NCBI GenBank assembly: GCA_021462855.1
Contig: JAJTXQ010000039.1
Span: forward strand, 62,001-126,000
Source: Dehalococcoidia bacterium
GTDB taxonomy: Bacteria; Chloroflexota; Dehalococcoidia; DSTF01; JACRBR01
Direction: 5' to 3'
Length of the DNA stretch: 64,000 nucleotides
In this document: one piece after another, positions 23,308 to 26,645 of the stretch
How the letters are laid out: the number at the start of each line of letters is the position of its first letter
Numbering within the stretch: the first letter of the stretch is position 1
The notes under the pieces: model-generated
Database searches by the model: none
What the model was told of the DNA's origin: nothing
The model's input: the letters and a program-made list of their open reading frames with translations, nothing else
Position numbers and translations under genes: made by a program

Positions 23308-25293
23308 ATGAGTTCGCGATGGTTGCGCAATAGCTTCATTTACCTGCTGATCCTCATCGCGGTGATCGCGATCGTTTTCTCGTTCTTCCGGGGCGGCGAC
23401 AGCACCAAGAACCTCAGCTTCAGCGAAGTGGTGGCCGCCGGCCGCGAGGGGCGCCTCGAGAGCATCGAGGTGTCCGGGCAAACCCTGAACGTCAACCTCA
23501 AGAACGACCCGCAGAAGTACAAGTCCCGCGTCGGCAAGAGTACCGACGTGGAGCAGGTGCTCGGCGAAAACGGCGTGACCATCGGCGGAGACACGGACAA
23601 GTCCGTCGACATCAAGTACAAGAGCGCGCCGGCATTCGGGAACTGGATCAACCTGCTGATCAACTTCCTGCCGATCATCGTCTTCGGCGCCATCCTCATC
23701 TTCATGATGCGGCAGGCGCAGGGCTCGAACAGCCAGGCGATGAACTTCGGCAAGAGCCGGGCGCGCATGTTCACCGGTAACAAGCCCACCGTCACGTTTG
23801 CCGATGTCGCGGGCGTCGACGAGGCGAAGGAAGAGCTCCAGGAAGTCGTCGAGTTCCTGAAGTACCCGGAGAAGTTCGCATCGCTGGGCGCGCGCATCCC
23901 GCGCGGCGTGCTGCTGGTCGGCCCGCCCGGCACGGGCAAGACGCTGCTCTCCCGCGCCGTCGCGGGCGAGGCGGGCGTCCCGTTCTTCTCGATTAGCGGC
24001 TCCGAGTTCGTCGAGATGTTCGTCGGCGTCGGCGCCAGCCGCGTCCGCGACCTGTTCGACCAGGCGAAGCGCAACTCGCCCTGCATCGTCTTCGTGGACG
24101 AGATCGACGCCGTCGGGCGCCAGCGCGGCGCCGGCCTCGGCGGCTCGCACGACGAGCGCGAACAGACGCTGAACCAGATCCTCGTCGAAATGGACGGGTT
24201 CGACACGAACACGAACGTCATCGTCATCGCGGCCACGAACCGCCCGGACATCCTCGACCCGGCGCTCTTGCGGCCCGGCCGCTTCGACCGCCAGGTGATC
24301 CTCGACCGGCCCGACAGCCGCGGCCGGCAGATGATCCTCGACGTGCACACGAAGGGGAAGCCGTTCGAGAAAGACGTCGAGCTCGGCATCCTGGCGAAGC
24401 AGACACCGGGCTTCTCCGGCGCCGACCTCGCGAACCTTGTGAACGAAGCGGCGATCCTCGCGGCGCGCCGGAACAAGAAGAAGATCGGCATGAACGAGTT
24501 CAACGAGGCCGTTGACCGCGTCATCGCCGGCCCGGAGCGCAAGAGCCGCGTGATCACGCCGAAGGAGAAGGAGATCATCGCCTACCACGAGGCGGGGCAC
24601 GCGCTGGTCGGCCACCTGCTCCCCAACGCCGATGTGCCGTACAAGGTGAGCATCGTCTCGCGCGGCATGGCCGGCGGCTTCACCCGCTACCTCCCCGAAG
24701 AGGACCGCCACCTGATGTCGCGGTCGAACTTCAAGGACATGCTGGCGGCGAGCCTGGGCGGCCTGGTGGCCGAGGAAATCCACCTCGGTGGCGAAAGCAC
24801 CACGGGCCCGTCCGATGACCTGAACAAGGCCACGCACATCGCCCGCAACATGGTTACGCAGTGGGGCATGAGCGAGCGGCTGGGTCCCCGGACGTTCGGC
24901 AACAAGCAGGAACTCGTGTTCCTCGGCCGGGAGATCGGCGAGCAGCGCAACTACAGCGAGAAGGTCGCCGAGGAGATCGACGAGGAGGTCCGCCGCCTCA
25001 TCGACCACGCCTACCAGACGGCGCGCACGCTCCTCACGGACAACCGCGAGCGTCTCGACAAACTCGTGCAGGTCCTGCTCGAGGAAGAGACGATCGAGGG
25101 TGACGACCTGCGCCGCGTGCTCGAGGGCATCGACCGCGAGCCGCCCGCGCCGGAGTCCCCGTCGGCGCCGCTCAGCGCCGACGAGCCGGAGATCAAGGAA
25201 CAGCCCGGCCCGACGCCCAAGCTCGGACCGCCTGGCCTTGCGTGGGGCAGCAGCCAGTCGAACATCTCCCTGGACTCCGACGGTGATTCCTGA
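23308..25293 (+). CDS. ftsH: ATP-dependent zinc metalloprotease FtsH
   Basis: 661 residues of standard FtsH architecture. Membrane helix 1 is at about 10-25 ([18 protein letters not shown]), and a periplasm-side domain to about 110 and membrane helix 2 ([19 protein letters not shown]) follow. The AAA domain has Walker A GPPGTGKT at 205-212, Walker [12 protein letters not shown], and the second-region-of-homology arginines (RPGRFDRQV). The zinc-protease motif HEAGH is at 427-431. It degrades membrane and regulatory proteins as a hexamer at the cytoplasmic membrane. The C-terminal 40 residues are Pro/Ser-rich. A strong terminator follows. Confidence 0.97.
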
Positions 25294-25318: not shown

Positions 25319-25345
25319 AAGGGGGCTCCAAGTGGAGCCCCCTTT
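25319..25345. terminator. Bidirectional intrinsic terminator between ftsH and the archaellin gene
   Basis: AAGGGGGCTCC (25319-25329) pairs with GGAGCCCCCTTT (25334-25345) around AAGT, with A and T ends on both sides. It serves the two converging genes. Confidence 0.85.
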
Positions 25346-25363: not shown

Positions 25364-25966
25364 TCAGTTGAGCGAGATCACCGCCGACAACGCGGCCGGC
25401 GTCGTCCGCTGGATCACGAGGAACGAGCCCGTCGGCGGCTTGATCTCGACGCTGAACGTCGTGTTCGGGCCGACCGTGACGCCAGCCGCGCCGAAGTCGA
25501 TCGTCACGCGCAGGAGTTCGCCCGGCTCGAGCAGCGAGTTGGCATTGCCGACGAGCGGCGCGACGGTGAAGGCAAGGTCGGTCACCACGGTCGTCGCGTC
25601 GATGTAGGTCATGACGGTGCTGTTACTCGTCGCCGCCGGGTCGAGGTTGACGTTATCGCCGCCCGCCGCCAGCGCCAGGTCGAATTCGATCGAGTCGACC
25701 GTCGCAAGCCCGGCGGAGCGCGCGACGACGCCGCTCTGGATCGTCATGGTGTTGCGCGTCTTCGCGAGGCCCGCGTGCACCGCCTCCTTGCTGCGCTCCG
25801 AGCTGAACAGCCCCGTCGACAGCACGACGAAGGCGAACACCGCCGCGACCACGACGAACGCGATGAGGATGATCGCCGTCTCGAGGCCCGTGATGCCCGC
25901 GTCATCGCGCAGCCGGCGTATGGCGCGCGCGAGACCGCTCGCCCGGACCCTGTGCATCGTCCGCAC
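25364..25966 (-). CDS. Archaellin-type (archaeal flagellin FlaB-like) type IV filament subunit
   Basis: 200 residues; a GTG start at 25966 has GAGGGG 6 nt upstream, and an ATG 9 nt later is the alternative. The N-terminus is a class III-type signal: a basic leader (RRLRDDAG) ending in Gly24, then GITGLETAIILIAFVVVAAV and a continuous hydrophobic helix ending VFAFVVLSTGLFSSERSKEA. This GLETAI-LIAFVVVAAVFAFVVLS core is the hallmark of archaellins rather than of bacterial pilins, which carry GFTLIE. Residues about 75-200 are a beta-rich, Asn/Thr/Val-rich domain, as in archaellin heads. No motor, peptidase or other archaellum gene is in the window, so it is solitary here. Its family is well supported; its role is not. 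Confidence 0.85.
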   Translation of the reverse strand: MRTMHRVRASGLARAIRRLRDDAGITGLETAIILIAFVVVAAVFAFVVLSTGLFSSERSKEAVHAGLAKTRNTMTIQSGVVARSAGLATVDSIEFDLALAAGGDNVNLDPAATSNSTVMTYIDATTVVTDLAFTVAPLVGNANSLLEPGELLRVTIDFGAAGVTVGPNTTFSVEIKPPTGSFLVIQRTTPAALSAVISLN

Positions 25967-26126
25967 CAGGCACCCCTCGGGCGCGCCGCCGCCCCACGCT
26001 CCGCGCGCGGGCGCTCCCCGGCGGGCAACGCCATCCGCAGAAATGAATCGGCCGCCATCGGCCGGACTGTTGGGCGGCGGCGCACGGGCATCGGATACAC
26101 TCCGGGCGGACGCGCCGCGTGCGCGT

Positions 26127-26156
26127 TTGACACAATCGAATCTGCGCCGATAGAAT
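26127..26156 (+). promoter_or_regulatory. Promoter of the rplU-rpmA-rpmE operon
   Basis: Perfect -35 TTGACA (26127-26132), an 18-nt spacer, and TAGAAT (26151-26156). It is the closest match to the sigma70 consensus in the window and lies 51 nt before the rplU start. Confidence 0.8.
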
Positions 26157-26165
26157 CAGTGGCTT

Positions 26166-26183
26166 GCCTGCCGCGCGGCAGGC
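26166..26183 (+). promoter_or_regulatory. Hairpin at the 5' end of the rplU leader
   Basis: GCCTGCC-GCGC-GGCAGGC, a perfect 7-bp stem that would begin within a few nucleotides of the predicted transcript start. It could stabilise the mRNA or take part in autogenous control by L21; there is no U tract for termination. Confidence 0.4.
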
Positions 26184-26207
26184 GTTTGCATGTCTGGAGG
26201 ACGAGCC

Positions 26208-26645
26208 GTGTACGCCGTCGTACGCAGCGGTGGGAAGCAGTACCGCGTCGAGGAAGGCCGTTCGGTGAAGCTCGAGCGCCTCGCCGGCGAGCCCGGTGAC
26301 AGCATCGAGATCGGCGACGTGCTGCTGATCGGCGATGGCGAGAACATCACCGTCGGCGCGCCGACGGTCGCCGGCGCCCGCGTCGTCGGCACGATCGCCG
26401 AGCAGGGCCGCGCGAAGAAGGTCGTCGTGTTCCGCTACAAGGCGAAGACGCGTCAGCGCAAGAAGACGGGCCATCGCCAGCCGTTCACGCGCGTCGTTGT
26501 GAGCGACATCCTCGCCGCCGGCCAGGAGCCCAGGCCGAAGGCAGCGGCGACGGGGGGCGGCGAGGCCGCGGCGACGGCCACCGACGAACCCCAGGCGGCG
26601 CCCGCAGCCGAGAAGCCGAAGCGCACCCGCAAGAAGGCAGAGTAA
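26208..26645 (+). CDS. rplU: 50S ribosomal protein L21
   Basis: 145 residues from a GTG at 26208 with GGAGG 8 nt upstream; the protein then opens [14 protein letters not shown], as L21 does. The core ends near residue 105 with the [14 protein letters not shown] segment, where L21 proteins bind 23S rRNA. The last 40 residues are an Ala/Glu/Lys-rich tail absent from the short E. coli protein but common in high-GC bacteria. L27 follows after 5 nt. Confidence 0.96.

Follow-up and report, generated by a model that had tools for sequence, protein, structure and literature searches.

What role can a bacterium give to a single archaellin gene that stands apart from the other archaellum genes? The question is raised by a 64-kb stretch of DNA from a Dehalococcoidia bacterium (the window), in which an earlier note had placed an archaellin-type gene by itself between ftsH and rplU and had offered two readings, a part of a split archaellum locus or a filament of another kind. 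The transfer of archaella to bacteria is known, and the question extends to how bacteria control them. Chloroflexota archaellins, functional bacterial archaella and scattered flaB copies have already been published (PMC12488501 and the available part of PMC10444878), in agreement with the note's remark that archaellum-type genes had been reported in this phylum.

To our reading, the gene most likely belongs to a split archaellum in this Chloroflexota, Dehalococcoidia-like lineage and encodes a filament subunit under regulation of its own, probably within a flagellar-sigma regulon. The window's genome (G000; 3.02 Mb, 76 contigs, 97% complete) was compared with seven others of its family (G001 to G007) and with genomes of its order and class. 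Every genome in the comparison is a draft assembly, and the named relatives among them are MAGs.

Results

The lone gene and its protein

The gene at 25364-25966 (minus strand), a solitary arlB paralogue of 200 amino acids with a GTG start, encodes a genuine archaellin. Its GC3 of 0.94 matches that of the genome's other genes, and an RBS-like GAGGGG (25973-25978, minus strand) lies 6 nt upstream of the GTG. Pfam Arch_flagellin (PF01917) matches residues 24-186 at 89.9 bits (E 3e-25, cut-off 29.5), and the NCBIfam archaellin/type IV pilin N-terminal domain is likewise above its cut-off. The basic 24-residue leader is a predicted class III signal peptide (25895-25966, minus strand) with predicted cleavage after Gly24 and Glu at mature position +5. 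It is followed by ITGLETAIILIAFVVVAAVFAFVVLSTGLFSSE at the start of a hydrophobic filament-core helix (residues 25-71; 25754-25894, minus strand), which is conserved in the family's paralogues, and then by a beta-rich head. Gly24 and Glu29 are invariant in an alignment of 96 archaellins, as are, entirely or nearly so, most residues of the helix; the L. aerophila filament subunit also begins at Ile after its leader (PMC12488501). An AlphaFold2 model built from the 96-sequence alignment (pLDDT 91) has a single long helix at residues 10-71 and a beta-rich head. Foldseek ranked the L. aerophila archaellum first (9i5h; E 3.8e-15, 46% identity) and archaeal archaella after it, so that the top matches to this beta-sandwich head are archaellins, and a sequence search of the PDB also returned 9i5h first (E 7.6e-37). 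The leader, helix and head pattern described in the earlier note is thus borne out by the Pfam and NCBIfam matches and by the model, and the structural comparison that it had proposed points to known archaella.

The metal-loop region, NANSLLEPGE (residues 141-150; 25517-25546, minus strand), was located by alignment with the L. aerophila archaellin, whose metal ligands include Asp127 and Asp121 (PMC12488501). Asn143 of the window protein takes the place of Asp127, a column that holds Asn in five of the six lone-lineage proteins described below as against 6 of 90 other archaellins, and Asp121 maps to a loop that the window protein lacks.

A separate filament, such as an adhesive pilus assembled by type IVa or Tad machines, would have the means in this genome, which carries a PilB/PilC type system and two Tad loci, and the promoter class described below also occurs at Tad genes. 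It is nevertheless a very improbable reading, as helix and head are those of an archaellin in sequence and fold, with a core nearly identical to that of the array archaellins. The Pfam search gave no N_methyl match, although the genome's own PilA-like protein has one, and residue +1 is Ile rather than Phe. It also gave no Flp_Fap match, and the 200-residue protein with its beta head contrasts with a short Tad/Flp pilin. No pilin family exceeded its curated cut-off. A filament of another kind therefore need not be invoked, particularly as the tree places the protein inside the Chloroflexota archaellins.

Flanking elements

On the left, ftsH (23308-25293, plus strand) is convergent with the archaellin gene, and on the right rplU (26190-26645, plus strand) is divergent from it. 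Between the two convergent genes we read a perfect, terminator-like hairpin, GGGGGCTCC-AAGT-GGAGCCCCC followed by TTT (25321-25345), which was not called by a terminator scan that requires five T. A promoter scan found no sigma-70 promoter for the archaellin on the gene's strand. An artefact or contamination is ruled out because G001 and G003 have the same ftsH/arlB/rplU neighbourhood. Codon usage was uninformative with respect to very high expression, the lone gene resembling two of the three array genes.

Archaellum machinery elsewhere in the genome

The claim that the gene stands alone, with no motor, peptidase or accessory gene, held for the 64-kb window, which contains none of the located archaellum genes, and failed for the genome as a whole. 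Six proteins of G000 match PF01917. The archaellin array is interrupted by the end of contig C26 and the beginning of contig C22, which are the two sides of one assembly gap; the same locus is uninterrupted in G003. Past the array the order is a coiled-coil gene at the arlCDE position (no family match; assigned from position and coiled coil), arlG, arlF, arlJ, a small acidic gene and an amidase. ArlF and ArlG have weak top hits below the cut-offs, and the best NCBIfam hit of the C22 ArlJ is to ArlJ at 456 bits, under the cut-off of 570. The interior of contig C14 holds arlH and arlI, whose products score 259 bits (cut-off 194) and, on the archaellum motor equivalog, 631 bits (cut-off 550). One A24 peptidase was found in G000. 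It is encoded on the contig that includes the window, about 22 kb beyond the last window position, and its sequence contains the TD...GxGD aspartates (TD, GMGD). The genome search suggested earlier for ArlI/ArlJ, ArlH and a preflagellin peptidase thus located all of them outside the window, ArlJ below its cut-off. With ArlF, ArlG and the class III peptidase they form an archaellum system in one genome, and the reading of the lone gene as part of a split archaellum locus is upheld by the array, the arlCDE-like gene and this machinery. Despite the complete archaellum gene set, no MCPsignal chemoreceptor was found in G000, so that any swimming driven by the archaellum would proceed without classical chemoreceptors.

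Several neighbouring genes deserve mention. A small acidic protein is encoded after arlJ (L008:4192-4689, plus strand) and another after arlI (L020:9447-9869, minus strand); each is conserved in five genomes, has no family match where tested, and shares with the other a similar C-terminal end (V-D/E-x-x-DL...AAAL). The post-arlI gene is a possible new archaellum accessory. Divergent to the array lies a LuxR/NarL-type response regulator (L007:7779-8723, minus strand), conserved in G001, G003, G004 and G006, which is a candidate regulator of the array.

A split layout in the family

In five of the eight family genomes, arlH-arlI is linked neither to arlJ nor to the archaellin array. Separate contigs carry arlI and arlJ in G000, G003, G004 and G006, with at least one of the two genes far from its contig's ends, and in G007 arlI is away from the array and adjoins rplU. 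G002 and G005 have a single locus in which arlH-arlI is divergent beside the array. The six outgroup genomes, from the order and class, in which both genes occur all have arlI next to arlJ. Archaellum loci were defined in PMC12488501 by co-localisation, which does not hold in G000, where arlH-arlI is on C14, arlJ on C22 and the lone arlB on C33; the split layout is consequently a variant that such a screen misses, and archaellated members of the family will escape surveys that require a single locus. Unlinked arlH-arlI is new with respect to the literature, which reports single loci.

The slot upstream of rplU holds a lone archaellin in G000, G001 and G003 and, in contrast, arlH-arlI with the small gene in G006 and G007 (L151 and L152 compared with window positions 25964-26190). 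The difference may reflect a shared ancestral island or repeated insertion.

A conserved lone archaellin lineage

In a maximum-likelihood tree of 45 archaellins, the window protein groups with one lone archaellin each from G001, G003, G004, G006 and G007 (support 100/99). This lineage nests within the family's archaellins and within Chloroflexota, where the window protein accordingly falls in the tree that the earlier note had called for. Since the lone gene is nested inside the family's own archaellins, its independent transfer from archaea was rejected. The gene adjoins rplU divergently in G000, G001 and G003, and in G004, G006 and G007 it lies beside different genes, common to those three; the lineage is absent from G002 (96% complete). 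Values of dN/dS for the lineage are 0.04 for G006 and G007, about 0.2 for G004 and G006, about 0.3 for G000 and G003 and, for more distant pairs at which saturation is partial, about 0.3 to 0.5 (overall range 0.04 to 0.47). At the level of sequence comparison, these results show a single orthologous lineage under purifying selection in six family genomes.

They also bear on whether the gene is an arlB duplicate without independent function, silent or decaying, that a genome rearrangement produced. In favour of that reading, the ancestral promoter of the window copy no longer has its -35 box, and solitary copies of arlB away from the cluster occur commonly, not all of them conserved (see also the available part of PMC10444878). 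The intact frame with native codon usage, the retained helix residues, the orthologues in six genomes and the low dN/dS of the pairs G006/G007 and G000/G003 nevertheless render such a relic quite unlikely.

A second conserved lone archaellin-like lineage occurs in four genomes (L159:7004-7603, L160:7305-7964, L163:12735-13355 and L170:4530-5150). Its core helix is changed (GITGVELAAIAGAIVLV in G006), the three copies tested are above the Pfam cut-off, and it is perhaps a minor subunit. Records titled Acetobacteraceae and PVC group (L036, L105) bear Chloroflexota-like archaellins on contigs that are probably mis-binned.

A predicted flagellar-sigma type promoter

Five of the six lone-lineage genes are preceded, about 155-195 nt upstream of the cleavage-site codon, by TAAA-N15/16-GCCGA, of FliA/WhiG (sigma-28) type; promoters of the flagellar/WhiG class have TAAA at -35 and GCCGATAA at -10 (PMC8325347). 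With a spacer of 13 to 17, the pattern matches 5 of 147 archaellin upstream regions, all five from the lone lineage, where about one is expected across all. Against the full consensus (-35 TAAA, spacer 15-16, -10 GCCGATAA), the five orthologues score 10-11 of 12 as compared with 8 of 12 for the window copy. Orthologue alignment identifies in the latter a degenerate promoter remnant, CAAC-N16-GCCGATTC (26045-26072, minus strand), that has lost its -35 and was missed by both the strict and the broader genome-wide patterns. Because the window copy keeps only GCCGATTC and CAAC at spacing 16, the promoter claim rests on the orthologues, and the function of a FliA/WhiG-type promoter at the lone archaellin is predicted from these upstream sequences.

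Searched genome-wide, the strict form TAAA-N15/16-GCCGAHMA has exactly one match each in G001, G004, G006 and G007, always at the lone archaellin; the G003 site is a variant with a looser -10 (GCCGAAAC) that the strict form misses. The broader pattern TAAR-N15/16-GCCGAYAM gives 18 matches in the eight family genomes as against 9 for a reversed control: eight precede archaellum genes (five the post-arlI small gene, three the lone archaellin), seven Tad/Flp genes, one a GGDEF gene, and two are unassigned. In G004, G006 and G007 the matches are exactly the lone archaellin, the post-arlI gene and Tad cpaB. The post-arlI gene has a sigma-28-type promoter of its own in five genomes, and G000 bears a broader-pattern site there and at a Flp pilin gene. 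In the order's other families the pattern was found before a lone archaellin in G009, before an archaellin next to arlG in G015 and before a LuxR-type regulator adjoining the array in G008; in G009 it also precedes an HD-domain phosphodiesterase-like gene located after a FliA-like sigma gene. Upstream of arlH in G002 and G004 to G007 we observed GCCGATAA or GCCGACAA with an imperfect -35. No FliA/WhiG-type promoter was found at the array archaellins of the family.

The motif could instead be inherited sequence or chance, with the gene driven otherwise, and its absence from the window copy and some order-level matches at unrelated genes (e.g. G010, G014, G015) favour that view. We consider it unlikely, given that the promoter block is conserved at two different chromosomal positions amid upstream sequence that has largely diverged in the orthologue alignment, and that 15 of the 18 broader family matches precede type IV filament genes. 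The probability of finding four of five strict matches at the lone gene is about 1e-17 under uniform placement and independent genomes, although kinship among the genomes makes the true value larger.

A CCTARGG operator common to all archaellins was also considered. The sequence does follow the promoter in the lone lineage, and such an operator is not claimed because 15 of 137 regions contain it, close to the 11.5 expected in shuffles.

Sigma factors and c-di-GMP genes

G000 has two genes for FliA/WhiG-like sigma factors, one of them above the curated cut-off (C35:104809; 194 bits against 189.6). The second (L187:5501-6253) has as neighbours a GGDEF gene and an HD-domain phosphodiesterase-like gene, an arrangement that recalls that of Rubrobacter WhiG and c-di-GMP; the G002 counterpart of the GGDEF gene has the promoter. 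A simple motif scan next to the sigma genes revealed no motif of an RsiG-type c-di-GMP anti-sigma.

Discussion

For a separately regulated subunit of a split archaellum we envisage the following mechanism. The single A24 peptidase found in the genome would remove the leader after Gly24, and the subunit would enter the filament via the ArlJ platform, powered by ArlI/ArlH. As its helix is unchanged, it may copolymerise with or replace array subunits, perhaps as an early, basal or condition-specific component rather than the bulk of the filament. In the family, a FliA/WhiG sigma would switch on the lone archaellin together with the post-arlI small gene and Tad pilus genes; the promoter has decayed in the window's strain, and expression of the lone gene there is accordingly uncertain.

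We lean towards a broader interpretation, in which a bacterial FliA/WhiG sigma governs an archaellum derived from archaea and, within the same regulon, Tad pili and c-di-GMP enzymes. The part that flagellin plays in ordinary FliA regulons would here fall to the lone archaellin, and the array would be under different control. This hints at an archaeal motor wired into a bacterial motility switch. The question of control thereby receives a concrete, testable answer in promoters of the flagellar sigma type, placed before a conserved archaellin and before further archaellum genes and Tad genes.

Comparison with known systems

New here are the unlinked arlH-arlI, the orthologous lone archaellin lineage and the FliA/WhiG-type promoter on that lineage; a literature search for unlinked arlH-arlI, an orthologous lone lineage and FliA/WhiG promoters on archaellum genes found none of them, and the available parts of the bacterial-archaellum papers examined are silent on sigma factors and promoters of the archaellum. 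The L. aerophila archaellum (9i5h; PMC12488501) is the closest known system, with the best sequence and fold match, an arl2-type order in which arlG precedes arlF, and a peptidase outside the locus. It differs in having all genes in one locus, where here arlH-arlI and one archaellin are unlinked, and in its Asp127 ligand. In the SAR202 bacterium 'Ca. Lucifugimonas marina', according to the available part of PMC10444878, an archaellin array is likewise accompanied by extra flaB copies scattered through the genome, but flaGFHIJ are kept in one cluster behind the flaB array; neither an orthologous lineage of lone archaellins nor a split motor or promoter class is described in that part of the paper. 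The WhiG regulon of Rubrobacter radiotolerans (PMC8325347) similarly has TAAA/GCCGATAA promoters before type IV pilus genes and c-di-GMP enzymes; its targets are bacterial type IV pili and it involves the RsiG anti-sigma, whereas the targets here are archaellum genes of archaeal origin.
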